Positions 1,694 to 42,605 of a stretch of 42,788 bases of DNA are shown piece by piece. The stretch is from an uncultured Muribaculaceae bacterium (GTDB lineage Bacteria; Bacteroidota; Bacteroidia; Bacteroidales; Muribaculaceae). The position numbers were made by a program, and so were the translations under genes. Position 1 is the first letter of the stretch. Each line of letters starts with the position of its first letter. The stretch is taken from positions 1-42,788 of the forward strand of contig CAJOFH010000022.1 of the NCBI GenBank assembly GCA_905233845.1, given 5' to 3'. The notes under the pieces are model-generated. The model had not been told where the DNA came from and searched no databases. It was given only the letters and a program-made list of their open reading frames with translations.

Positions 1694-1725
1694 CTTGCAT
1701 AATTGAACAGCAATTACTAACTTTG
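1694..1725 (+). promoter_or_regulatory. Bacteroidota-type promoter for the BspA-like gene
   Basis: The -7 box TAACTTTG (1718-1725) matches TAnnTTTG fully. CTTG (1694-1697) stands in for the -33 TTTG with a 20-base spacer. Transcription would start near 1732, so the gene cannot start at the upstream ATG at 1725. This supports translation from 1767. Confidence 0.65.
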
Positions 1726-1766
1726 TGGCGTTGGAAACGATTAGCCACAACAAAAATGATAAAGAT

Positions 1767-3314
1767 ATGAAAAAGTTCACTTTTTTATTGCTGGGACTGA
1801 TAATGATGACCAATGCCAGCGCCTACGACTTTATGGTTGATGGACTGGCTTACTCAATAAATAGTGGTGATTCAACTGTGACGGTGACGTATACAGCATA
1901 TTATTCAACCACTAATTATAGTGGTTTGACAACTGCAGACATCCCAAATAGTGTAATATACAATGGCACTGCTTACTCGGTTACTACGATTGGCGACTAT
2001 GCTTTCTGTGGTAGCACTGACTTGACCTCGGTGACTATCCCCAACTCGGTGACTTCGATTGGGCAATCGGCCTTCGAGGCTTGCTCTGGCCTTACCTCAA
2101 TGATTGTGGATAGCGAAAATAAAATGTATGATTCTAGATATAATTGTAACGCAATAATAGAAACTGCGACCAATACTCTTATATTTGGATGCAAGAATAC
2201 CGTTATCCCCAACTCAGTGACTTCGATTGGCAACGGTGCATTCGCTTTTTGCCGCTTCACCTCGGTGGATATCCCTAACTCGGTGACTTCGATTGGAGAC
2301 AATGCCTTCTATAGCTGTACTGGCTTAACCTCGGTAATCATTCCCAACTCGGTGACGTCGATTGGAAAAGGTGTATTCTATTATTGCACTGGCTTGACCA
2401 CGGTGACCATACCCAATTCGGTGATAACGATTGGCGATTACGCCTTCATTTATTGCAGTGGCTTGACTTCGGTGACTATCCCCAACTCGGTGACATCAAT
2501 TGGGAAATCTGCCTTCGAGAGTTGCTCTGGCCTTACCTCAATGATTGTGGATAGCGAAAATGCAATGTATGATTCTAGGTATAATTGTAACGCAATAATA
2601 GAAACTGCGACCAATACTCTTTTATTTGGTTGTAAGAATACCGTAATCCCCAATTCAGTGACATCGATTGGCTCAAGAGCCTTTTATGAATGCAGGGATT
2701 TGACTTCGGTGACTATTCCCAACTCGGTGACATCGATTGGGAAATCGGCCTTTGAAGATTGCACTGGCTTGACCTCGATGACCATGGGCAACTCATTGAT
2801 TTCTATTGGAAAAACTGCCTTCTATCGTTGTAGTGGCTTGACCAAGTTAACCATACCCAATTCGGTGACAACGATTGGCGAATACGCCTTCTTTTATTGC
2901 ACTGGCTTGACCTCGATGACCATAGGCAACTCGGTGGCTTCGATTGGCGAATACGCCTTCTTTAAATGCGTTGGCTTAAAATCTATATATTCAAAAATAA
3001 AAGATATTAATATCAGCTATGGCAATTATATCTTTGATGGCGTGCTCACATCCACATGTGTGCTTTATGTTCTCAAAGGTTGCTTGAGCGACTATCAGTC
3101 AACCCTACCATGGAGTGTATTCACCAATATCGTTGAGGAGAATGAAGGCGATGTGGACGGCGACGGAGTAGTGACCAGTTCCGACGTGACTTGCCTCTAC
3201 AACTACTTGCTCAACGGCGATTCTAATGATATCGTCAATGGAGACCAAGACGGTGACGGCTTTGTCACAAGTGCCGACATTACTGTTATTTACAACATTT
3301 TGCTTGGAGAATAG
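1767..3314 (+). CDS. BspA-type leucine-rich repeat protein with C-terminal dockerin
   Basis: This is a 515-residue exported protein. A signal peptide occupies about residues 1-20 (MKKFTFLLLGLIMMTNASA). About ten LRR_5 (BspA/Treponema pallidum type) units follow, with the recurring core SVTIPNSVTSIGxxAFxxCxGLT. Residues 462-515 form a dockerin with loops DVDGDGVVTSSDV and DQDGDGFVTSADI. BspA-family proteins act in surface adhesion and protein binding. The dockerin would serve for non-covalent attachment to a cohesin, which is inference here. The start at 1767 is chosen over 1725 because the signal peptide begins there and the promoter's -7 box overlaps 1725. A segment of about 150 bases is duplicated almost exactly within the gene (2081-2231 and 2522-2672). 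Confidence 0.88.
   Translation: MKKFTFLLLGLIMMTNASAYDFMVDGLAYSINSGDSTVTVTYTAYYSTTNYSGLTTADIPNSVIYNGTAYSVTTIGDYAFCGSTDLTSVTIPNSVTSIGQSAFEACSGLTSMIVDSENKMYDSRYNCNAIIETATNTLIFGCKNTVIPNSVTSIGNGAFAFCRFTSVDIPNSVTSIGDNAFYSCTGLTSVIIPNSVTSIGKGVFYYCTGLTTVTIPNSVITIGDYAFIYCSGLTSVTIPNSVTSIGKSAFESCSGLTSMIVDSENAMYDSRYNCNAIIETATNTLLFGCKNTVIPNSVTSIGSRAFYECRDLTSVTIPNSVTSIGKSAFEDCTGLTSMTMGNSLISIGKTAFYRCSGLTKLTIPNSVTTIGEYAFFYCTGLTSMTIGNSVASIGEYAFFKCVGLKSIYSKIKDINISYGNYIFDGVLTSTCVLYVLKGCLSDYQSTLPWSVFTNIVEENEGDVDGDGVVTSSDVTCLYNYLLNGDSNDIVNGDQDGDGFVTSADITVIYNILLGE
2081..2672 (+). repeat. Near-identical intragenic duplication in the LRR gene
   Basis: Bases 2081-2231 and 2522-2672 (offset 441 bases, 147 codons) encode almost the same segment, including MIVDSEN, MYDSRYNCNAIIETATNTL and GCKNTVIPNSVTSIG. 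Only scattered base differences separate the copies. This indicates recent in-frame amplification of three to four LRR units. Confidence 0.8.
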
Positions 3315-11481: not shown

Positions 11482-12297
11482 ATGAAAAGATTAATTACTC
11501 TATCTGGATTAATGGCTCTTTTGCTTGTGGCAGGGGGCAAGTTTGCGGGATTCTCAGCAAGTGCTCAGCCCGAGTCGTTTAACTGCAACTTCACTCAGCA
11601 AGACTTTCGCAATAACGAAGTAGTTAGGACCAACACCCTCAATGTGGTGTGGGACAAGGACGCTGGTGTCTTGACTTTCAATAATTTCTATGCTAATGAT
11701 ATGGTGAATGATCAGGTTGTCAACTTGGTATTCCCTTCTTATGCCACCGACACCTCAAGCCCAACAACTTTGACTTGGGAGAGTGATACAAAGGCAAACT
11801 TTACCTGGCGTGCCTGCTCAATGGGACAAAGCGATTTGTTTGAGTCTCTACCTTTCTCTTATGCTTCTTTCAAGACCTATAAGAGTGCAGTGGTAAGCCG
11901 TTTCCAGCATGTGGGAAATCCTGTAAGGATTTATGACCCGGCATCAAACTCACTCCCTACAAATAGCTATTATGCTTATTACGGAGGTCAGGATTGCCAC
12001 GGCACTATCGATATCGCTGCGGGAACTATTGAAATTACCGATCCATGGGGATGCGTTATAGGCAATAACAGTTGGAACTCTATGAGTGCATCAGTCGTTA
12101 TTGAGTATTTTGAGAGGTCTGAGATGATTCGCATCAACACTTCAATCAATGATGTAAATACTAATGCTCAAGTGGTAAGCACTCGCTACTACAACACCCT
12201 CGGTGTTGAGTCTGCACAACCATTTAATGGAGTTAATATTATAGTTAAGGAGCTTGACAACGGACAGAAAACTGTTACAAAGCAACTTATGAGATAA
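11482..12297 (+). CDS. Secreted protein, paralogue of the 12398 product, with sorting-like C-terminus
   Basis: This is a 271-residue exported protein of unknown function. A signal peptide ends near SASAQ (residue 28). Residues ~29-210 form a beta-rich domain with landmarks TQQDFRNNEVVRTN, TLTWESDTKANFTW and DPWGCVIG. The same landmarks occur in the next gene (QKDYRDGQVVRTN, TLTWDSDTKAHFGW, DPWGCMIG), so the two are paralogues. The C-terminal ~45 residues (STRYYNTLGVESAQPFNGVN, ending TKQLMR) resemble type A sorting domains of the type IX pathway. It is the first gene after a strong promoter. A large hairpin separates it from the next gene. Confidence 0.75.
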   Translation: MKRLITLSGLMALLLVAGGKFAGFSASAQPESFNCNFTQQDFRNNEVVRTNTLNVVWDKDAGVLTFNNFYANDMVNDQVVNLVFPSYATDTSSPTTLTWESDTKANFTWRACSMGQSDLFESLPFSYASFKTYKSAVVSRFQHVGNPVRIYDPASNSLPTNSYYAYYGGQDCHGTIDIAAGTIEITDPWGCVIGNNSWNSMSASVVIEYFERSEMIRINTSINDVNTNAQVVSTRYYNTLGVESAQPFNGVNIIVKELDNGQKTVTKQLMR

Positions 12298-12397: not shown

Positions 12398-14326
12398 ATG
12401 AGAAAATGTGTAATTTTATCACTGTTGTTTGCTGCGATGCTCGCAGTGAATAATAGTGCTGATGCTCAAAACCAACCAGAGTCGTTTACGCAAGTTTATC
12501 TGCAAAAAGACTACCGCGATGGTCAAGTCGTGAGAACCAATAATGTTACTGTGATTTGGGATGCTGAGTCTGGATTATTGACATTCAAGAATTTCTATTG
12601 GAACTTTTTGGTGGTTAATAACGTAGTAATTGACCTTATTTTTCCAAGAGGAGGAACTTCTACAACTAGTCCTACTACATTGACATGGGATAGTGATACA
12701 AAAGCACATTTTGGTTGGAAAGTCTCATATATGGGTTACACTAGTGTTTACTCGATTTATCACCAGGCATGTATTAGTCACATGAAGAGCGGTTCTTCTT
12801 TCACTTCCTACGATCCAGAAACTCACACAACAGGTCATTATAATTATGGATATGATGGAGGAAGAGAATGTAATGGTACCATTGATTTGGAGAAAGGAGA
12901 AATCACTCTTGATGATCCTTGGGGCTGTATGATAGGTTATGGCTCAAGTTGGACATCTATGAGTAGTTCTTGTACAATTGAATACTTTGAACGCTCAGTA
13001 ATGACAGCAACAAACTTGGTTGACATCGTTAATGATGGCAATCCTGGCAAGGACTATACAGTCAACGATGATCTTGTGGGCGTTGCCACAGTTGACCATG
13101 TACTAAGTGCACCAATGGGTGTGAGTCGAAATCAAAACACCTTTATGATTGAAAAGGGTCGCTACAAACTTGATTTTGACCTCAGCAACAACACCCTTAC
13201 GGTGTCGCAAAGTGCCGATGATGTGACTGGATATGTGAATAATGGGTCTTATCCTACTTACTATGTTTTTGGTCAAGCAAATACTAATGACTGGAATCCC
13301 ATGGTTGGTCAGCCTATGGAGACCACCGACGGTGTTCATTATAGTGCCGTAGTAAATTTTGATGGTCGTGACGATGGCAAGAATTATTTTAGTCTTACAA
13401 GCGGGTTGGCACAGAATAATGATGATGGTGGCTGGAACTATGTAAATAACAATTGCCGTTTGGGTCCCGCGAGCAATGATTATCCTGTAGTAATGGGCGA
13501 TGTGCTTTTTGCTAAAGATATGGGCAAGTATAAATATCCATCGGTTCTGCGTGAAGGTCAAGATGATTTTATGGGTCGTGTTGCAGCTGAATATGCTGGC
13601 GAAATGAGCTTCCATCCCGCTAGCAGTTATGACCAGAGCAACTGGGTGATGCTTACTGGAGTGACTAATGCCAACAACTATGTGGGCAAGATTATCAAGG
13701 GCAGAAGCATTACTGGCACACTTGTTGACAAGGTTAACCCTACTATTGCTGTTAACTCCAACCCCAAAGCGGGAGAGAGTTCACAATACGAGCCCAACCT
13801 CTACATAATGCCAAGCTTCAACGAGGCTTATTATGCCCCCGAGAGCAATTACTTCTTTGTTGCTCCAAAAGTTCAGGAGTATGCCTATATCACTTGGGCA
13901 TGCTACAATGCTGCCGACGGCAAGTTCTATGTGCCCAACGACGGCAACGACAACAACTTGAGTGGTGGCATTGCAGTGAACTGGGACTATCTACCCAATG
14001 CTTCACCTACCGACGGATATGTCTATGAGTTTGATGCCATCTTGCGTAAAGTGCCACAGTCTGCCAGCAACGCTCCAATGCTCAAGGACGGCGCTCACAG
14101 CACTCCTAACACCGATGCAGTCTCGGCCGACTACCTTGTTTATCCTTTGCGTCTCTACGATGTTCCAACCGCTATCAACAATGTTGAGTCAAAAGGCAAG
14201 GTTGTCGACGTGAAGTATTATAACATGATTGGCATTGAGAGCAATGTACCATTCAATGGTGTGAATATTGTAGTTTCCATCTACGATGACGGCAGCCGTA
14301 CTACTTCTAAAAAACTTTTTAAATAA
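12398..14326 (+). CDS. Large secreted protein with N-terminal domain shared with 11482 product
   Basis: A 642-residue exported protein of unknown function. The signal peptide ends near NSADAQ (residue 24). Residues ~27-205 are homologous to the upstream 11482 product. The middle (~210-590) is not in the paralogue and is rich in Tyr, Trp, Asn and Asp (for example YYVFGQANTNDWNPM), in the style of secreted carbohydrate-binding or SusE/SusF-like beta domains; this is only a resemblance. The C-terminus (DVKYYNMIGIESNVPFNGVN, ending TSKKLFK) resembles type IX sorting domains. Only 24 bases separate it from the next gene, so it likely heads an operon with 14351 and 16085. Confidence 0.75.
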   Translation: MRKCVILSLLFAAMLAVNNSADAQNQPESFTQVYLQKDYRDGQVVRTNNVTVIWDAESGLLTFKNFYWNFLVVNNVVIDLIFPRGGTSTTSPTTLTWDSDTKAHFGWKVSYMGYTSVYSIYHQACISHMKSGSSFTSYDPETHTTGHYNYGYDGGRECNGTIDLEKGEITLDDPWGCMIGYGSSWTSMSSSCTIEYFERSVMTATNLVDIVNDGNPGKDYTVNDDLVGVATVDHVLSAPMGVSRNQNTFMIEKGRYKLDFDLSNNTLTVSQSADDVTGYVNNGSYPTYYVFGQANTNDWNPMVGQPMETTDGVHYSAVVNFDGRDDGKNYFSLTSGLAQNNDDGGWNYVNNNCRLGPASNDYPVVMGDVLFAKDMGKYKYPSVLREGQDDFMGRVAAEYAGEMSFHPASSYDQSNWVMLTGVTNANNYVGKIIKGRSITGTLVDKVNPTIAVNSNPKAGESSQYEPNLYIMPSFNEAYYAPESNYFFVAPKVQEYAYITWACYNAADGKFYVPNDGNDNNLSGGIAVNWDYLPNASPTDGYVYEFDAILRKVPQSASNAPMLKDGAHSTPNTDAVSADYLVYPLRLYDVPTAINNVESKGKVVDVKYYNMIGIESNVPFNGVNIVVSIYDDGSRTTSKKLFK

Positions 14327-14350: not shown

Positions 14351-16069
14351 ATGAAAAAACATCTTTTTGCAGTATTACTACTTGCTTTTGCAACAACCAG
14401 TGTGTCGTGGGCTGCTTCGGCATTTACTGCCGAGAAGTTGGCAAGTATCAACATCGAGATGGATCGTGACATCCAAACGGGTACTACAATTGGTTGCAAC
14501 CGTGTGTCAATGGCATACACGGGAGGCACTAGCCGCGTGACGGTTTCTAACTATTTCGCTCAAGGTAGCGACTTGACTTTCAGCGTTAACTGGGGTGCCA
14601 ACACTATCCAGTTCATGCCACAATGTATTTATACTTATCAGTATCAAAGTTATACATGCTATCTCTATGTTGTTGCACAGTCGGTTGTGAACAATAGTGA
14701 TGTGAACTCAGTTCTTAATACAAGTCTTTCGGGCCGTGTGAATTCCAGTGGTTTCACTATCTCCACAACATGGAACTTGGCGCTGATTTATTATGATCCC
14801 GACAATGATGCTTATGTTAATGCCGGAGCCATGTACGATAACGGTATGTTCACTCAGTTCATCGCTAGCAATGCCACGATGACCTATGATGAGGTTGACT
14901 TCGACAGTGATGACCACGTTTACAACACAGGTAATGTGGTATCATTCCCGGTATATCTGTACTACTATAATAATAAGGTGACTATTTACAACTTCCTTGA
15001 TTATGGTTTTGTGCCTGAGTTCACTCCTGGTGAGGGTAAGAACATGTGGGAGAACCCAAATGAAGAGCTTGCCCAATATAAAGATAATCAGACTGGTATA
15101 ACTTATCATTTCTGTCTTTATAACTGGGGACCGAATGCTGATGGCTATGCCGATGTATATACCAATCAGTATGCTCAAGCTGAGGTTACTTCTGAGACAG
15201 TGTTTGACATGGGCAACATCACACTTGCCGACATGGTTCGCGACGGCATGGGATTCATTGGCGGTAACGCTAAGATTGTGCTTGAGAGTGGCACTCTGCC
15301 ATTTGAGGAACCCGTGATTCCTGGCGATGTGAACTCCGACAAGAAAGTCAATGTCACCGACGTGATGTGCGTTGCCAACTATATCGTGGGCATCACACCC
15401 GAAGTGTTTGTCGAGGAAGCGGCCGATGTGAATGCTAGTGGCTCAATCAATATCACCGACCTTATTGCTATCGCAAATATCGCAGTTGGCAACACTGCTG
15501 CTCCTGCTTTGAATGCTCCTAAGGCAGCGACCAACGATGTGTTAAGCCTCGGTGAATATGATGCAGCATCTGGCACAATCGCCATAAATCTAGAGAATGC
15601 TACTGAATATGCCGGCTTCCAGATGGATGTAACTCTGCCACAAGGTCTCTCACTTGAGAGTGCTGAGCTCACTGGCCGTGCTGCTTCTCACATGCTTATG
15701 ACTGGTGTTAACCCCGATGGCTCTATCCGCTTGCTCGGCTTCTCGCTCAACAACGACGAGATAGCTGTTGGCAACGATGCTATCATCACCCTGAAGATTA
15801 AGGCTAATGCATCACTCGGCGCTAACGATAACATCACCATTAGTGACATATTCTTCACTCAATATAATGAGGTGGAGAGCGTGCTGCCTAATGTGACCAC
15901 TAACGCGGTCGTTACAGCCATTGCCCAGATAGGCGTTGATGGCGAGGGTGTTAACGTTTATGACATGAAGGGCGTGCTCTTGCGTCAAGGCGTGAACCCG
16001 GGCGAGGCGACTAAGGGTCTGCCAACGGGTGTATATGTGATAAACGGCAAAAAAGTGCTTGTAAAATAA
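14351..16069 (+). CDS. Secreted protein with internal dockerin, one cohesin-like domain and sorting-like C-terminus
   Basis: This 572-residue exported protein has a signal peptide at residues 1-21 (ending SVSWAA). A beta-rich domain of unknown family covers ~25-315. A divergent dockerin lies at 325-381: the loops are DVNSDKKVNVTDV and DVNASGSINITDL, where the first loop has Lys in place of the usual Gly. A cohesin-like beta-sandwich follows at ~398-525 (AGFQMDVTLPQGLSLESAELTGR). A sorting-like C-terminal domain ends the protein (VNVYDMKGVLLRQ, GVYVINGKKVLVK). The order dockerin, cohesin-like, sorting domain is unusual. It is probably cotranscribed with 12398 and with 16085, which starts 15 bases downstream. 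Confidence 0.8.
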   Translation: MKKHLFAVLLLAFATTSVSWAASAFTAEKLASINIEMDRDIQTGTTIGCNRVSMAYTGGTSRVTVSNYFAQGSDLTFSVNWGANTIQFMPQCIYTYQYQSYTCYLYVVAQSVVNNSDVNSVLNTSLSGRVNSSGFTISTTWNLALIYYDPDNDAYVNAGAMYDNGMFTQFIASNATMTYDEVDFDSDDHVYNTGNVVSFPVYLYYYNNKVTIYNFLDYGFVPEFTPGEGKNMWENPNEELAQYKDNQTGITYHFCLYNWGPNADGYADVYTNQYAQAEVTSETVFDMGNITLADMVRDGMGFIGGNAKIVLESGTLPFEEPVIPGDVNSDKKVNVTDVMCVANYIVGITPEVFVEEAADVNASGSINITDLIAIANIAVGNTAAPALNAPKAATNDVLSLGEYDAASGTIAINLENATEYAGFQMDVTLPQGLSLESAELTGRAASHMLMTGVNPDGSIRLLGFSLNNDEIAVGNDAIITLKIKANASLGANDNITISDIFFTQYNEVESVLPNVTTNAVVTAIAQIGVDGEGVNVYDMKGVLLRQGVNPGEATKGLPTGVYVINGKKVLVK

Positions 16070-16084
16070 ATTCAATGCGCTTTT

Positions 16085-18835
16085 GTGATGAAAACAAGAT
16101 TTAGAAATCTTATATTGCTGATAACGATTGCTGTGACTAGCTTAAATGCTACTGCAGCAAGGCTCTATATCGAGGATTTCACTATCGAGCCAGGCACTAC
16201 GATGAGTGTGCCATTGCTGCTTGATAATCCTAATGAGCCGCTTGCAGCTTTCCAGTTAGACCTGTTCTTGCCACAAGGGCTTTCGGTGGCAAGCAATGGG
16301 GTACAACTAGGTGAACGTGCTTCAAGCTCGCATCAGCTGATGACGAATGTCAATGGCGACCATCTCACCGTGATGGCATTCAGCTTTCCGGCTACCAATT
16401 TCACTGGAACTTCGGGGGCTGTGGCCTATATCGATGTAACGGCAGCTGCTGACTTTGATGGGCAGGCTGTGATAAACGGTAAGAACATTGCCTTGACTAC
16501 AAGCGACGCGCATGAGGTGGCTGGAGACGACTTTAGCACCAATGTCACGGCACAAGGCTTCATAGTATTGGGTAATGAATTCTATATGAATGATTTCGAG
16601 ATTGCCCCTGGCAGCACTTTGCAGATGCCTGTGGTTCTTGACAATCATGCGAGTGGCATCGCTGGATTCCAGTTTGACATGTATCTGCCCGAAGGAATTA
16701 CCACTAACGCTAGCTCGTTCACTCTCAGCGACCGCAAGGGTGAGTTTCATCAAGTTGTTGTCAACAAAAATGGTGACCATTGGAGCGTTGTGGCTTTCGG
16801 CTTCCCTACTGCCGATTTCAGTGGCGACAGCGGTGATATCATGTACATCGACTTCACGGCGAGCAAGTCATTCACTGGCAGTGCTGTGATTTCGTTCCAC
16901 AATGTGATACTTTCCACGAGCGATGCTCACGAGAGCCCAATTGAGGACTTTGATGTTAACGTTACTGCCAATGGTGTGTATGTGCCTACCGATCGTCTCA
17001 CTATTGACGATTTCTCAATTAAGCCAGGCAAAACGGCTGTTATGCCTGTTATGCTCGAGAATGAGGTGACACAATTCAGCGGTATAAGTTTCGAGATGAC
17101 CGTGCCTCAGGGATTATCTGTTGCCGAGGATGCCTTCTCTCTTACCGACCGTGCTCCAGATCACAACCTTATTGTTACCGCTTTCGATGAGAATAGCTAT
17201 AAGGTGGAAGTCGAGGGTCGTTATGGAAGACTCTTTACTGGAACTGATGGCGCTGTACTCAACATAGTGGTGGCTGCCGATCGCACTTTTGAGGGACAGG
17301 CTGTCATTAATGTGAGCAATGTGCGGCTTCTTGAGCCTAATAGCGATGTCACTACTCTTGACAATTTTGACGTTACAGTGACTGCTGACGGGGTATATGA
17401 ACCTGAAAACTTGTTCTACATCAATGACTTTGAAATTACTCCTGGGCAAACTCTGCAAGTTCCTGTAATTATGGACAATGAGGCTACACCTGTAGCTGGT
17501 TTCCAGCTCAAGTTGGAGATGCCGGCAGGGCTCACTGCTAATGGTGCTACGCTTAGCGACCGAAAGAGCGAGACGCATCAAGTGGTGGCTAATTCAAACG
17601 GCAATATCATGTCGATCGCCGCATTTAGTTTCCCAGTGGCAAACTTCTCGGGTGACTCTGGCGTGGTGATGTATATTAGTGTCACTGCAAGCCGTGATTT
17701 CTCGGGAACCGACACGATTCATGTCAGTGATGTGGTGCTCACCAGTGCCGATGAGGTTGAGACAATTATCGATGACTTCGACGTTAACGTGACTGCCAAT
17801 GGAATTTATGTGCCTAGCGATAATCTCACTATTAATGACTTTGAGATTGCCCCAGGGCGTTCTAAACAAGTGCCTGTGGTGCTCACCAATGAGACTGTCG
17901 ACGTCTACAGCGTTGAATTTAACCTTAATATGCCCGAATTGTTGTCGGTTGCAGACCAAGCGAGATTGGGCGAACGCGCCAATGGTCACATAGTTAGTAT
18001 CACTCAACAGAATGGATTACTGCATGTTGTTGAGAACGCAGTTCCTGCGGCGGCTTTCACTGGTGACGATGGAAACATTATGTACTTGAAGGTGAATGCA
18101 CAACGGGAATTTGCCGGTTCTGCTGTTATAAATGTACAGAATATAGTGCTTCACACAAGCAACGGTGATATGAATATCGACGACTTCGGAGTTATTGTCA
18201 CAGCTAGTGGTCCATATACTCCCATTGATACTCTTTACATCGATGATTTTAGCATTGAGCCGGGTACTACTTTGGCGGTACCTGTAGTGATGGACAATGA
18301 GGTGACCAATATCTCTGCATTGCAGTTTGACATCACAATGCCAGCCGAGCTTTCTATTCCTCGTGCCGACAATGGGGATTATAGCATGGCACTCACCGAT
18401 CGTATGAGCGATAATCATTACATCATCGCTAATCCAAAGGCAAATGGCGATATTGGTGTTGTGGTAGTAAGCTTCCCGCCAGTGGATTTCAATTGTGATA
18501 ACGGTGCTGTGATGATTATCGACATGAAAGCGCTTGAGAGTTTCACCGGAACGACACAGTTTACAGTGAAGAATGTTGTTATGACTACAGCCGATGCTCA
18601 GACCGAAATCAGCGTCCCCGACTTTGTTGTTGTGGTTACAGCTGTCAAGGGAGGCTCTCATATTGTGGGCGATGTGAACTGTGATGGTTATGTCACTAGT
18701 GCTGACATTACTGCATTATATGAGTATCTTCTCAATGGTGATGAAACCTTTATTGCCACAAGCGATGTTGATGGTGATGGTTCTGTCACTTCAAGTGATA
18801 TCACTGCTGTATACAGCATTTTGTTAGGCAGTTAG
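16085..18835 (+). CDS. Scaffoldin-like protein: six cohesin-like repeats plus C-terminal dockerin
   Basis: This is a 916-residue exported protein. The signal peptide ends near residue 24 (SLNATA). Six tandem repeats of 136-140 residues start at about residues 25, 165, 304, 443, 580 and 716. Each opens with (F/L)xIxDFxIxPGxTxxVPVxLDN, then xxAGFQFDxxLPxGL, then DR near residue 55, and ends DFDVxVTAxGxYxP. This layout (a PG-T-xxVPV strand, a FQF strand, an LPxGL turn and a terminal V-VTA strand) is that of cohesin (PF00963) beta-sandwiches. A short linker leads to a dockerin at 862-916 with loops DVNCDGYVTSADI and DVDGDGSVTSSDI. There is no catalytic domain, LPXTG, S-layer module or sorting-like C-terminus. 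Binding of dockerins by the repeats is inference. It is the last gene of the cluster, before a clear terminator. Confidence 0.85.
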   Translation: MMKTRFRNLILLITIAVTSLNATAARLYIEDFTIEPGTTMSVPLLLDNPNEPLAAFQLDLFLPQGLSVASNGVQLGERASSSHQLMTNVNGDHLTVMAFSFPATNFTGTSGAVAYIDVTAAADFDGQAVINGKNIALTTSDAHEVAGDDFSTNVTAQGFIVLGNEFYMNDFEIAPGSTLQMPVVLDNHASGIAGFQFDMYLPEGITTNASSFTLSDRKGEFHQVVVNKNGDHWSVVAFGFPTADFSGDSGDIMYIDFTASKSFTGSAVISFHNVILSTSDAHESPIEDFDVNVTANGVYVPTDRLTIDDFSIKPGKTAVMPVMLENEVTQFSGISFEMTVPQGLSVAEDAFSLTDRAPDHNLIVTAFDENSYKVEVEGRYGRLFTGTDGAVLNIVVAADRTFEGQAVINVSNVRLLEPNSDVTTLDNFDVTVTADGVYEPENLFYINDFEITPGQTLQVPVIMDNEATPVAGFQLKLEMPAGLTANGATLSDRKSETHQVVANSNGNIMSIAAFSFPVANFSGDSGVVMYISVTASRDFSGTDTIHVSDVVLTSADEVETIIDDFDVNVTANGIYVPSDNLTINDFEIAPGRSKQVPVVLTNETVDVYSVEFNLNMPELLSVADQARLGERANGHIVSITQQNGLLHVVENAVPAAAFTGDDGNIMYLKVNAQREFAGSAVINVQNIVLHTSNGDMNIDDFGVIVTASGPYTPIDTLYIDDFSIEPGTTLAVPVVMDNEVTNISALQFDITMPAELSIPRADNGDYSMALTDRMSDNHYIIANPKANGDIGVVVVSFPPVDFNCDNGAVMIIDMKALESFTGTTQFTVKNVVMTTADAQTEISVPDFVVVVTAVKGGSHIVGDVNCDGYVTSADITALYEYLLNGDETFIATSDVDGDGSVTSSDITAVYSILLGS

Positions 18836-23063: not shown

Positions 23064-24872
23064 ATGAACACTGTTAATATTGAAAATATTGACCTTGGCA
23101 ATCTTGAGTTCCAAAATGCCTGGAACCTGATTCGCAACACTCATCGCTCGGTGTTTCTTACTGGCAAGGCTGGCACAGGAAAGAGCACTTTCCTTAAGTA
23201 TATATGTGCCAACACTACAAAGAAACACGTAGTGCTTGCTCCTACAGGTATTGCAGCTGTAAACGTGGGAGGGCAGACGTTGCACTCGTTTTTCAAGATA
23301 CCATTCAAGCCATTACTTCCCGATGACCCCGACTTCTCTCCTCGCCGCATCCGCAAGACGTTACGTTACTCGTCACAGAAGGTAAAACTCATACGCACAC
23401 TCGACCTTATCATCATAGATGAGATATCGATGGTGCGTTGTGATATGGTTGATTTCATTGACAAGGTTCTCAGGATTTATTCGGGTAATATGCGTGAGCC
23501 GTTTGGTGGAAAGCAGCTGCTTTTTGTGGGCGACATTTTCCAGTTGGAGCCCGTTATTACTCGCGACATGCGCGATATTTTGCGGCGTTATTATGAGCAG
23601 TTTTTCTTCTTCAATGCCAGAGTGTTTAACCGTTTGGGGCTTATTCCAATTGAGCTACGAAAGATTTATCGACAGACCGACAGCAACTTCATATCGATGC
23701 TTGACAGGGTGCGCGTGAGTCATGCTAGTAACAATGACCTTCTACTTCTTAATGGACGTTGTGAGCCTGACTATAAAGAAGTGGATGATAAGTTCGTTAT
23801 GACTCTCGCCACTCGTCGTGACACAGTAGATTCTATTAATGATGCTCACATGAGGGCGCTAGATACTCCCGAGTATGTGTTTGAAGGGGAAGTTACCGAT
23901 GTTTTCCCCGACAATGACCTCCCCACAAGCAAGGAGTTGACACTTAAAAGAGGCGCACAAGTAATTTTTATCCGTAACGATAGAGAAGGCCGTTGGGTTA
24001 ATGGCTCACTCGGTAAGGTGTCGAGACTTGACAGTAATAGTATTGAGGTGGAATTGGAGAATGGCGAGAGTTATTCTCTGGAGCAGGAAATTTGGGAGAA
24101 TGTCCAGTATTCCTACGATGAGAAGGAGAAAAAAGTCATTGAAAATGTGGTGGGCACATTCAAGCAATATCCCATTAAACCAGCATGGGCGCTGACTGTG
24201 CACAAGAGCCAAGGCTTTGCTCAGGCTATGGAAATCCACAGCGTGATTAATAATGATTCTGTGGCCAAACGCTTTATAAAGATTAAGTTCAACAAGTTCC
24301 ATCGCCTTAACACTAAAATAAAGAATCTGGAAGAAGTAATCGATTCCCAAAACAAGCAATTGCTAGAATTGGCATCAGAATTTACTGCCATGGGCGACCA
24401 AGCCTTGGGATTGGGCACGCTGGCTCAAGAGGATGAGGTGCCTTATGGCAATTCTAATACAAAACTTGATGAAATTGCCGTCAAGTCGGCGTTGGCAAAC
24501 TATAATAAAGCCCTGCGAATAAGCAAAGGCTACGTTCCTGCCATGCTCGGCAAGGCGCGGCTGATGGAGGCGATAGGGGAGAGCGACAAGGCGATTGTTC
24601 AGCTTGAGATGGTACTTGAAAAAAATAAGAATTGTTATGATGCACTTATGATGCTTGCATCAATTTATGAGAAAGACAAGGATATCTCGGCAGCCGTCAA
24701 GCTTTACAAGCGTGCCTCTCGTGCTTCTCGCATAGCTATAGAACCGATTCTTGCTCTTGCACGAGTCTACGATAAGATAGGCCTAGATGATGTTGCTGAT
24801 GAATACCGTGATGTCGTCAAACAAATGCATAAGCAACAACAAGCCAAAAAATCACGTCGTAAGAAGAAATAG
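23064..24872 (+). CDS. Pif1-like helicase lacking motif VI, joined to a TPR tail
   Basis: A 602-residue cytoplasmic protein. Residues 1-384 are a Pif1/RecD-type superfamily 1 helicase: Walker A GKAGTGKST (~35-43), IIIDEISMVR (Walker B), LFVGDIFQLEPV (motif III), ELRKIYRQ (motif IV region) and ALTVHKSQG (motif V start, His380). In normal relatives this last motif leads through about 50-60 residues to a QVYVALSR-type motif VI. Here it jumps directly to FAQAMEIHS, and no motif VI follows. Residues ~385-602 are helical with several TPR units (NYNKALRISKGYVPAMLGKA) and a Lys/Arg-rich end. An in-frame deletion is the simplest reading. If so, helicase activity is probably impaired. Assembly error cannot be excluded. 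Confidence 0.8.
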   Translation: MNTVNIENIDLGNLEFQNAWNLIRNTHRSVFLTGKAGTGKSTFLKYICANTTKKHVVLAPTGIAAVNVGGQTLHSFFKIPFKPLLPDDPDFSPRRIRKTLRYSSQKVKLIRTLDLIIIDEISMVRCDMVDFIDKVLRIYSGNMREPFGGKQLLFVGDIFQLEPVITRDMRDILRRYYEQFFFFNARVFNRLGLIPIELRKIYRQTDSNFISMLDRVRVSHASNNDLLLLNGRCEPDYKEVDDKFVMTLATRRDTVDSINDAHMRALDTPEYVFEGEVTDVFPDNDLPTSKELTLKRGAQVIFIRNDREGRWVNGSLGKVSRLDSNSIEVELENGESYSLEQEIWENVQYSYDEKEKKVIENVVGTFKQYPIKPAWALTVHKSQGFAQAMEIHSVINNDSVAKRFIKIKFNKFHRLNTKIKNLEEVIDSQNKQLLELASEFTAMGDQALGLGTLAQEDEVPYGNSNTKLDEIAVKSALANYNKALRISKGYVPAMLGKARLMEAIGESDKAIVQLEMVLEKNKNCYDALMMLASIYEKDKDISAAVKLYKRASRASRIAIEPILALARVYDKIGLDDVADEYRDVVKQMHKQQQAKKSRRKKK

Positions 24873-39105: not shown

Positions 39106-40776
39106 ATGAGTAAAATTTATGTCAACGGATCCCAAACAGGACAAACGTTTAGCCCAAACTTCAATCTAAACAGTCTTCTGTCTAACACTGTCGTTCAACG
39201 CTCCAACGATGATGTTGTGAAAGTACAGCTAACAGAACCAGGTGTATATTATATTACTAAAACTATATGTTTTTGTTGCAATCTAATAATTGAAGGATGT
39301 GAGGGAGCTATAATTGAAGTTAAATTTTCAACTGCAAATGATTATAGTGATGATTCTTTTTTGGAATTCATGAACATTTATCAAGGCGTACATCATCGTC
39401 GCAATATTGTGATTAAGAATATTGAGTTTAAGATAAATAACTCGCATTTTTGGAGTTCTTCATATCCAAGTTTCTACTTTTTGAAGTTTTATGCCTCAGG
39501 GTCAGTGCACATTGATAATGTGAAAATGAGACTCGATGGCCATCCAATTACCAATTTTGACTTCCGTGAATGCTGGAATGTTGTAATCGAGAATTACTTG
39601 CTCGAAAACTATCATGAAAATGTTCAAGAAACGAACTTGGGCGGAGTTATTTGGTTTAGTGGAAACGTAAAGAATGTAAAAATTGTCAACAACATTCTAA
39701 AAAAAGCGGGAAACGATGAGTTGTTGGCGTTTTTCGGTCATTATCTTGATGACACAAATGTTGTTGTCCCAGACGATGAGAAACCACCACTTTACCTTTG
39801 TAAAAAGGATAATATAATTGTGAAAAACAATATTATTGTTTACAAACGTCCTGTAACGACAGGCACCGATTACTCCAATGACTGTCTTGTTGTTTTATGC
39901 GACCGTGACACAATCAACCCAAGTTCCCAAGGAACAAAACAATACTTGTTTGAGAACATCATTTTCGAAAGCAACAATTTCATCATTAACGATCATTGCA
40001 GGAGTATCTTCAACACCAAATTTGAAGAACAAACCATATTGCGTAATGTTTGTTACCAAAACAACAATATTGAAGTCGGTGATTTTAATGTCAACGGTGG
40101 ATATGTTTCTGTGTTTAGTCTGAATAACAAATTCCCAGGGATTGACACAATCTATGAGATTTCGGGTAACACACTTTACAATAAAGCGGAAATTAAAAAT
40201 TTTGCTAATGTTGAAGATCAAAACAATCTGCCAGCTCTTTTCTTCTTAATTCAAAATGGTGGAAAAGTCTCTGTAAAGGGCAATATCACAAGGATTTCTG
40301 AAGATACTAAGTTTAAGAAAATACGTTTCTTATGGAACAACTACTTCACTAACAAGACAATAATAGAGAACAATGATTTGGAAGGTCTCTTTATTCTTGG
40401 TTCCTTGGATTGCGCTCCTAATTATAGTCTCACTTGTGATTTACTTATAAAGGATAATATTATAAAGGGAGACACGAGGATTTACTGTTACAACTTAACA
40501 GACATGGCACTCACATTTGATGGCAATCACATTGAAAGCTACCACGATGTGATAGCCCTACAAGATGGAGCTGGCAGCATCTTCAACTATATTAATAATC
40601 ACGTGGTTGTTCATGAGCCAATTTCTTCTTTCTATTATTCTTCAAATAGTCACAATATAGACTCTTGTTGTGTCGCTAACAATGTTTTTGAGAATCTGCC
40701 CAGCAATGCCATGAACATCTTTAACAATAATGTGACCAGTACAGTTCAAGTTGTACAAAACAACATCCAGCTATAA
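39106..40776 (+). CDS. Parallel beta-helix-like protein without a visible signal peptide
   Basis: A 556-residue protein rich in Asn, Ile and Val with repeating short strands such as NIVIKNIEFKINN, NVKIVNNILKKAGN and DNIIVKNNIIVY. This is the pattern of right-handed parallel beta-helices (pectate lyase, phage tailspike). No catalytic residues can be assigned. The N-terminus MSKIYVNGSQTGQTFS has no hydrophobic signal, which is odd since its neighbours are exported. CFCCN near residue 56 is an unusual cysteine cluster. It lies 52 bases after the DUF3244 pseudogene and 35 before the CotH gene, so the three likely form one transcript. Confidence 0.75.
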   Translation: MSKIYVNGSQTGQTFSPNFNLNSLLSNTVVQRSNDDVVKVQLTEPGVYYITKTICFCCNLIIEGCEGAIIEVKFSTANDYSDDSFLEFMNIYQGVHHRRNIVIKNIEFKINNSHFWSSSYPSFYFLKFYASGSVHIDNVKMRLDGHPITNFDFRECWNVVIENYLLENYHENVQETNLGGVIWFSGNVKNVKIVNNILKKAGNDELLAFFGHYLDDTNVVVPDDEKPPLYLCKKDNIIVKNNIIVYKRPVTTGTDYSNDCLVVLCDRDTINPSSQGTKQYLFENIIFESNNFIINDHCRSIFNTKFEEQTILRNVCYQNNNIEVGDFNVNGGYVSVFSLNNKFPGIDTIYEISGNTLYNKAEIKNFANVEDQNNLPALFFLIQNGGKVSVKGNITRISEDTKFKKIRFLWNNYFTNKTIIENNDLEGLFILGSLDCAPNYSLTCDLLIKDNIIKGDTRIYCYNLTDMALTFDGNHIESYHDVIALQDGAGSIFNYINNHVVVHEPISSFYYSSNSHNIDSCCVANNVFENLPSNAMNIFNNNVTSTVQVVQNNIQL

Positions 40777-40811: not shown

Positions 40812-42605
40812 ATGAAAAAATCGTTTGGCAACATAATTCTTGCATTGACTTGTTTCTGTGTAAAAGGATATGCATTTGAATTCGAGGCTGGACAATACTA
40901 TTTCGATAACAGCAAGATAGATTACAGCAATATTATGTTTGCTGCTTTCGACACTGTCAACACAACTGTCACACTTCATGAGATGAATCCCACTGGCGAT
41001 AATGCATGGTGGGAATTATCTCTTGATGAACCTATCGTCTGTGACCTTTATTCCTTTGTTGAGAGTTACGCATTTCCTACATCTTATAACGAAACTGTAA
41101 ACAAGTTTCTGGTTCGTCACACCACCCGACATACGCAGCTTGGGATGTGGATGGAGATGAACCCCTCAACACATCCGCATTATCCTGGTTACGTTTACTG
41201 CCCGATAATGAATGATGCAGTGAGTGATGGCTACTGGAGGACACAGGAGAGCTACGATGCCACGCCATCGGGCACTCTGCCCATTTTGCATGTCCGCACT
41301 AATGACTCACAGCCCATCGTCACAAAGGACTATTATATCAATGGAAATCTCTGGCTTGACAATTGTGGAATCCAGGAATTTGAGTCGATGGGAACTGAGA
41401 ATGCTCCTCTACCCATCGAGATAAAGGGACGAGGCAATTACACATGGAGGGCGTTCTATAAGAAACCCTATAAAATAAAGTTCCTTTCTAAGCAGTCGCC
41501 TTTGGGGCTTGATAAGAGCAAGCATTTCATCCTGATGCCTCACGCCGACGACTTGAGCGGTTATTTGAGGGATGAGACAGGATTTGAGATGAGCCGACAG
41601 TTGGGAATGGAATACACTCCTCGACAGTTGCCCGTGGAAGTAGTGCTTAACGGTGAATACATTGGCCTCTACTTCCTGTGTGAGAAAATCAGGGTTGAGA
41701 ACGGACGGGTCGACATAACAGAGCAGCAAGAGAATGACACCAACCCCAACAATGTCAGCGGAGGCTGGCTACTGGAACTTTCGGGTGACGGCACTTTTGT
41801 ACATGGCCAGTTCGAGGACAATGACCCGACAAGGATATGGTACTGGTTTGACTCACATTCCCCCGAGCAGGTGTCGCAAGTACAAGTCAATTACATCTCA
41901 CGACTTTTGAGTCAGACCGACAGCTGCATCTTTGTCAAGGACAAGTACGACCGTGGTTGGGAGGGGTTTATTGATGTCTACTCGCTGTCACGCTTTTATG
42001 TCATCAACGAGGTCATGTCAAATGTCGAGTCGTTTTGCCGAAGCATGTTTCTTTACAAAGACTGGGGAGAAGACGAGAGGCTGAAGTTCGGGCCAGTGTG
42101 GGATTTTGGAAATAGTTTCACCTTCACAGGAGCCGATGATTTCATCTATAACTACAACACACAGTTCTTTTTCCTGTGGATTGAAGAACTGCTGAAATTC
42201 CCTCGGTTCCAAGAGGCTGTAATTGACGTTTGGAGATATTTTAAAGAGGAAAATGTTTTGAACAAAGTTTTTGAGCATGACCTCTACATGATGAACAAAA
42301 TTAACCAAGCCAATAGCCATGACAAAGTTAGATGGCCCTATTATAGCGACCTTTGGACGGGGGCATCAACAAGCTACTTGAACCAGGTTGCACAGAAAGC
42401 AGAATGGCTCGACAGTCAGTGGGGATACGTCATGGGCGATGTGGACCGTGATGGGACGGTCACAGCCACCGACATTACAGCCATCTATAACTATCTCCTT
42501 AATGGCGACGAGAGTTTCTTAAACACGAGCGACGTCAACGGTGATGGTTACATCAATGCGGTAGATATAACTATCATTTATAACATATTACTGAATAACC
42601 ACTAA
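40812..42605 (+). CDS. Secreted CotH-family kinase with C-terminal dockerin
   Basis: A 597-residue exported protein. The signal peptide ends near GYAFE (residue 21). The CotH domain (PF08757, about residues 150-515) shows IEIKGRGNYTWRAFYKKPYKIKF, the GLYFLCEKIRV segment and GPVWDFGNSF (427-436). CotH domains are atypical kinases that phosphorylate proteins. The usual DFD-type metal site has Gly433 in its last place here, so activity is uncertain. Residues 542-597 are a dockerin with loops DVDRDGTVTATDI and DVNGDGYINAVDI. Dockerin-bearing CotH proteins are known from rumen cellulosome bacteria. Here it would be a candidate partner of the cohesin-like repeats at 16085. Confidence 0.87.
   Translation: MKKSFGNIILALTCFCVKGYAFEFEAGQYYFDNSKIDYSNIMFAAFDTVNTTVTLHEMNPTGDNAWWELSLDEPIVCDLYSFVESYAFPTSYNETVNKFLVRHTTRHTQLGMWMEMNPSTHPHYPGYVYCPIMNDAVSDGYWRTQESYDATPSGTLPILHVRTNDSQPIVTKDYYINGNLWLDNCGIQEFESMGTENAPLPIEIKGRGNYTWRAFYKKPYKIKFLSKQSPLGLDKSKHFILMPHADDLSGYLRDETGFEMSRQLGMEYTPRQLPVEVVLNGEYIGLYFLCEKIRVENGRVDITEQQENDTNPNNVSGGWLLELSGDGTFVHGQFEDNDPTRIWYWFDSHSPEQVSQVQVNYISRLLSQTDSCIFVKDKYDRGWEGFIDVYSLSRFYVINEVMSNVESFCRSMFLYKDWGEDERLKFGPVWDFGNSFTFTGADDFIYNYNTQFFFLWIEELLKFPRFQEAVIDVWRYFKEENVLNKVFEHDLYMMNKINQANSHDKVRWPYYSDLWTGASTSYLNQVAQKAEWLDSQWGYVMGDVDRDGTVTATDITAIYNYLLNGDESFLNTSDVNGDGYINAVDITIIYNILLNNH

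Follow-up and report, generated by a model that had tools for sequence, protein, structure and literature searches.

Multi-cohesin scaffoldins that carry a dockerin of their own are known from the rumen bacterium Ruminococcus flavefaciens, a Gram-positive host with other means of anchoring, in which the cargo consists of fibre enzymes. Classical clostridial scaffoldins have a separate dockerin type for anchoring. Non-cellulosomal cohesins include three single ones, two of which are on enzymes (NagJ, 2jh2, and GH33, 2vo8, of Clostridium perfringens; 2xdh of Archaeoglobus fulgidus). Here, we analyzed a 42,788-nucleotide stretch (the window) from an uncultured Muribaculaceae bacterium (GenBank assembly GCA_905233845.1, contig CAJOFH010000022.1), which belongs to a rumen-dwelling group not known, to our knowledge, for cellulosomes. 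Its scaffoldin-like gene (16085..18835, + strand) is predicted to encode a signal peptide, six cohesins, and a C-terminal dockerin. In contrast to the single non-cellulosomal cohesins, the six stand in a row and are not joined to an enzyme. Judged by sequence and a structure model, the product is probably a scaffoldin-like organizer of dockerin-bearing secreted proteins, docked on an anchor or on other scaffolds.

The nearest published cases are brief. Passages of PMC5830445 report multi-cohesin proteins in 15 rumen metagenome-assembled genomes (MAGs), one of which, RUG606 (two cohesins), is from the Prevotellaceae. In the corresponding passages of a camel study (PMC6071333), Bin136, a member of the Bacteroidetes, is listed with 5 dockerins and 1 cohesin in a bin group with two to four tandem cohesins per gene, and Bin129 is listed with two cohesins. 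As far as these passages go, RUG606 and Bin136 resemble the present case in being rumen Bacteroidetes with a protein of at least two cohesins. They differ from the six-cohesin scaffold in number (two in RUG606 and two to four in the Bin136 group), and the gene pair, dockerin class, anchor, and structure are not described there. In the available portions of other papers, the function of dockerins in rumen Bacteroidetes is called undefined (PMC7480376); dockerins are recorded in Bacteroides, Alistipes, and a Bacteroidales single-cell genome, with a cohesin only in a Christensenellales one (PMC10266427); and cohesins and dockerins are treated mainly for Ruminococcus or as absent (PMC6118326, PMC9763041, and PMC8810776). 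The parts of PMC8865330 retrieved with Bacteroidetes terms hold nothing on cohesins, and neither Bacteroidetes nor Bacteroidota occurs in the main text, as available, of a 2025 review (PMC12484212). Titles and abstract openings in the open-licence literature yielded no description of this gene pair or dockerin set.

The open frame comprises 916 codons. Because the GTG at 16085 is directly followed by an ATG, the true start is probably 16088, which gives 915 residues. By eye, the protein begins with a Sec-type signal peptide without a lipobox. The six repeats, each of 136 to 142 residues, occupy residues 27-165 (16163..16579), 166-304 (16580..16996), 305-443 (16997..17413), 444-580 (17414..17824), 581-716 (17825..18232), and 717-858, all on the + strand; the first was called from the repeat boundaries and the profile described below. 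Pairwise identity among them is 33 to 58%. At the C terminus is a type I dockerin (residues 862-915; 18668..18829, +) in which both halves of the duplicated F-hand (PF00404) are present; Pfam places Dockerin_1 at residues 862-910 (E value of 1.4e-11; 44.9 bits versus a cutoff of 22.9). No catalytic domain was found on the protein by Pfam, and several cohesins without a catalytic domain are the hallmark of a scaffoldin. In a whole-genome search with a profile made from the six repeats themselves and the neighboring gene's domain, each repeat scored far above chance (E values of 6e-51 to 3e-60). Boundaries, Pfam, and genome profile thus bear out the architecture proposed in a preliminary description of this DNA, namely, six tandem repeats plus a dockerin and no catalytic domain. 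That description also reported no sorting-like C terminus, and the sequence indeed ends in the dockerin.

The array was suggested to be old and not a recent slip, and comparison of ten orthologues (one in the window and one in each of nine named loci) agrees. Repeats at the same position average 72 to 83% identity across orthologues, versus 33 to 52% for different positions; thus, the array predates the divergence of these species. Six repeats are present at eight of the nine named loci; L103 has four, equivalent to repeats 1 to 4.

Identification of the repeats as cohesins draws on two independent routes. The resemblance to PF00963 claimed earlier held only in part: repeat 2 scores above the cutoff by itself (24.8 versus 24.1 bits), while the other five repeats searched singly, and the whole protein at an E value of ≤1, have no match. 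At the same threshold, PF00963 matches 29 of the 84 domains in our alignment, not all of them over the cutoff. A predicted structure of repeat 6 has the cohesin beta-sandwich fold. When it was compared with known structures, ranks 1 to 42 by VIA-align were cohesins, with 47 cohesins and three YcnI entries among the 50 rows listed, and ranks 1 to 41 by Foldseek were all cohesins. The single-repeat structural check proposed in the preliminary description therefore placed no unrelated beta-sandwich on top. Sequence profiles arrive at cohesins independently of the structure model, and their best match is cohesin 5 of R. flavefaciens ScaB (5n5p; E value of 1.2e-5). Clostridial type I cohesins, by comparison, share only 16 to 19% identity with those found here (Clostridium acetobutylicum CaCohA2, 6kgc/6kge; Acetivibrio cellulolyticus ScaB cohesin 6, 5nrk/5nrm). 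Sequence and model together support cohesin-like domains of a scaffoldin-like protein.

In known cohesins, the dockerin contacts the sheet formed by strands 8-3-6-5. We scored conservation over the 84 sequences, taking strands from the model and sheet membership by analogy. Positions with a majority polar residue and a score of >0.5 numbered 6 of 33 in strands 8-3-6-5 and 0 of 40 in the other strands (Fisher P = 0.0065, with sheets assigned by analogy and a counting rule fixed after the scores were seen). The six positions are 33, 35, 64, 77, 82, and 116; Gln occupies position 33 in 76 of the 84 sequences, Asp position 35 in 68, and His position 64 in 74. The strand-3 pair of Gln and Asp differs from the strand-3 residues described for type I cohesins of C. 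thermocellum. Repeats 1, 2, and 6 of the scaffold carry the common Q33/D35. Repeat 3 instead has S33 (10/10 orthologues), E35 (9/10), and K77 (9/10); repeat 4 has K35 (7/10); and repeat 5 has E33 and H77 (9/9 each). These face differences, kept among orthologues, suggest that repeats 3, 4, and 5 may have position-specific partners.

The same data bear on whether the repeats bind anything. They could be spacer or adhesin modules of a stalk that the dockerin alone attaches to another protein. Such a stalk would account for the five repeats without a PF00963 match, for the deviating faces of repeats 3, 4, and 5, and for the appearance of 2jh2, 2xdh, and 2vo8, cohesin folds from outside cellulosomes, among the best matches. 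We nevertheless regard it as unlikely, as the conserved polar strand residues are confined to the strands assigned by analogy to the dockerin-binding sheet, and the residues that set repeats 3 and 5 apart hardly vary among orthologues, which fits specificity better than a neutral stalk. A further point against it is that cohesins accompany multiple dockerins in genomes across 18 other families (see below).

The 3.2-Mb genome holds 121 PF00404 matches. A profile from five window dockerins, applied to the stretches around these matches, likewise gave 121 matches in 120 open reading frames (ORFs), 116 of which have Dockerin_1 by Pfam at an E value of ≤1e-5 (48/50, 33/35, and 35/35). The dockerin lies within 25 residues of the C terminus in 82 of the 121 cases, starts in the first 100 residues in 19, and is internal in 20. 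Among the 117 dockerins aligned (four of under 46 residues were left out), the first of two equivalent positions holds Tyr in 111 and the second in 113; the residue three places earlier is Thr in 112 and 111, respectively. This nearly uniform two-fold motif suggests a single recognition class, perhaps with dual binding. The scaffold's own dockerin falls in the common class; the least similar are those of three cohesin-plus-tail proteins (C43:14770, C8:52033, and the 14351 product, discussed below), followed by C1:95269 and C9:86553.

Because the scaffold dockerin is of the common class, scaffolds could interlock and branch. In a rival reading, the dockerin would bind the scaffold's own cohesins to form a surface fibre or coat, with cargo binding secondary. 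Nothing visible separates self from cargo, given the common dockerin motif and the common face on repeats 1, 2, and 6. However, it would face competition from about 110 further dockerins of this motif class, and an anchor-like gene adjoins the scaffold gene in 9/9 named relatives; we therefore consider a self-polymer very improbable.

The dockerin ORFs indicate what an organizer might gather. Their commonest partner families are LRR_5 (29), Peptidase_C10 (12), and FGE-sulfatase (12), followed by CotH (at least 6), CBM26 (6), DUF285 (6), alpha-amylase (at least 4), and subtilase (3); these counts come from the 25 families listed of 34, 27, and 28, so some may be too low. GH53, GH18, a SusD-like protein, and a DNA/RNA endonuclease are among the single cases. 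Unlike the fibre enzymes of R. flavefaciens, the candidate cargo is thus mainly leucine-rich repeat (LRR), protease, and FGE-like proteins. In a true cellulosome, the scaffold would collect plant cell wall enzymes for fibre breakdown. Several relatives are labeled as omasum, reticulum, or RUG (rumen) MAGs, and some dockerin ORFs are carbohydrate enzymes (GH53, GH18, and alpha-amylase), some with CBM26. By contrast, LRR, protease, and FGE families dominate, no cellulase family is among the partner families listed, and the single GH9 match (C8:66373-67803) has no PF00404 match and lies >12 kb from the nearest one; by its cargo, the system is not a cellulosome. Pfam also found no carbohydrate-binding module (CBM) on the scaffold at an E value of ≤1, although not every scaffoldin has one. 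Judged by the families listed, cellulases and hemicellulases are thus not the main dockerin cargo, and a true cellulosome is extremely improbable. Of the "cellulosome scaffoldin" plan initially proposed, the scaffoldin-like part is supported by the fold, the profiles, and the 120 dockerin ORFs, while "cellulosome" was an overstatement for a cargo that is mostly not plant cell wall enzymes.

Two side observations concern dockerin placement in genome G000. A set of FGE-sulfatase (SUMF1-like) proteins carry an N-terminal dockerin right behind the signal peptide (e.g., in L002, L006, L008, L028, and L030). A SusD-family protein (C18:35039-37780; L145) has a dockerin near its N terminus, tying the dockerin set to glycan uptake systems.

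The candidate anchor is encoded by the gene (14351..16069, +) that ends 15 bases upstream of the scaffold gene. Its product has an N-terminal part of unknown function, a divergent dockerin (residues 325-381; 15323..15493, +), one cohesin (residues 398-523; 15542..15919, +), and a C-terminal tail (15920..16066, +) weakly like a type A sorting domain of the type IX secretion system (T9SS). At 16.4 bits and an E value of 0.0067, the tail is below the TIGR04183 cutoff of 23 bits. Anchor-type tails in L054, L059, L062, and L091 comprise at least two sequence types at the same place, GxYxxxGKKVxVK and VTTYTDGTxxTxKxI.

In the organizer that we propose, the scaffold would be exported through its signal peptide, and each of the six cohesins would take up, through its dockerin, a further protein secreted by that cell, as the fold, the conserved face, and the dockerin set suggest. 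The scaffold's C-terminal dockerin would plug into a cohesin elsewhere, most simply that of the 14351 product, whose T9SS-like tail could tie the assembly to the outer surface (the weakest step). Scaffolds might also dock onto one another, giving branched assemblies. The cargo would be a broad surface-type set of LRR proteins, C10 and other proteases, FGE-like proteins, CotH proteins, and amylase/CBM26 proteins, with no cellulase set. Should the cohesins bind, this Gram-negative gut lineage would possess a scaffold that serves surface proteins in general and not fibre enzymes alone, and an outer membrane step would be involved that clostridial models do not need. With likely partners in the same genome and the gene pair kept in nine named relatives, the proposal is directly testable with small domains.

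A bolder extension, in our view decidedly unlikely, is that cohesin-dockerin pairing serves as the surface-sorting code of the genus. Cohesin adaptors with T9SS-like tails would carry or capture >100 dockerin-tagged secreted proteins, most of them without a recognized sorting signal of their own, so that a T9SS substrate would bring this cargo to the outer surface or keep it there; the scaffold would be an amplifier and repeats 3 to 5 address-specific sockets. Bearing on this extension, the 82 C-terminal dockerins lie where a sorting tail would sit.

A whole-protein search of 61 genomes matched 38, namely, 37/37 of the genus (the window's own included) and 1/24 others, with short matches possibly reflecting a dockerin or cohesin alone. 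Among the matches listed, those of the window's own genome, G010, and G029 are nearly full length. In a larger genus sample, six more genomes (G297, G303, G306, G321, G329, and G347) have several repeats in a 916- to 927-codon frame; in this sample, cohesin-like domains occur in 99/101 genomes and dockerins in 101/101. Across 247 Bacteroidales genomes, the A3 profile was matched in 22 (E value of ≤1e-5), PF00404 in 86, and PF00963 in 68 (E value of ≤1e-3). Cohesins are therefore common in Bacteroidales and not simply the Clostridia trait that they had been taken for. All 25 genomes with at least three dockerin matches (per-genome counts are minima from the best 25 candidates) have a cohesin by either profile, versus 54/222 others. 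With PF00963 alone and the window's genome excluded, the figures are 19/24 versus 49/222 (P = 4e-8), the 24 genomes being spread over 18 families.

Several points weigh against the proposed organizer. The correlation just given ignores ancestry, has no unrelated control family, and lets one protein count for both domains; 23 of the 86 dockerin genomes have no cohesin match (all but one of them with a single dockerin match), and 16 of the 79 cohesin genomes have no dockerin match. Five of the six repeats go unmatched by PF00963, and part of the polar conservation may be structural. About 120 dockerin ORFs face 14 to 15 cohesin-like matches, a large shortage of sockets unless the proteins compete for them. 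The scheme assigns no partner to the divergent dockerin of the anchor, and C9 has two adjacent anchor-like genes and no scaffold gene. Anchoring is a weak step, since the tail is both under the TIGR04183 cutoff and outside the genome's 7 Por_Secre_tail (PF18962) matches. Only 2 of the 120 dockerin ORFs hold such a match; thus, most have no recognized means of crossing the outer membrane.

Genome G039, from another family of the order, encodes a second type of multi-cohesin protein in the Bacteroidales. Giant proteins of 1,239 to 3,771 residues (L087, 1477-8877 and 9022-12741; L088, 1619-12934) carry 5 to 8 spaced cohesin-like domains and, by eye, a T9SS-like end. No dockerin was found on them, and the genome has at least 25 dockerins.

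Upstream of the candidate anchor gene, after a 24-base gap, is a gene of unknown function (12398..14326, +) that is kept in 9/9 named relatives and is probably in the same operon; its product has no Pfam match at an E value of ≤1. A further gene of unknown function (11482..12297, +) is kept with the cluster, having an orthologue in 8/9 named relatives; in L099, where the DNA starts close by, there is only a 58-residue match to another gene. Three other window genes encode candidate cargo: a BspA-type LRR protein (1725..3314, +) and a CotH-domain protein (40812..42605, +), each with a C-terminal dockerin, and a dockerin-bearing protein cut by the contig edge (1..1470, +). The last shares its first residues, AIMLSCKENGEI, with a dockerin ORF at a different contig end (G000 C42:51560-53188), so the left edge of the window probably marks a point where the assembly broke within a repeated gene. 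Elsewhere in the window, a PIF1-like helicase is fused to a C-terminal tetratricopeptide repeat (TPR) part (23064-24872), and a 556-residue ORF without a Pfam match at an E value of ≤1 (39106-40776) suggests, by eye, a right-handed beta-helix.
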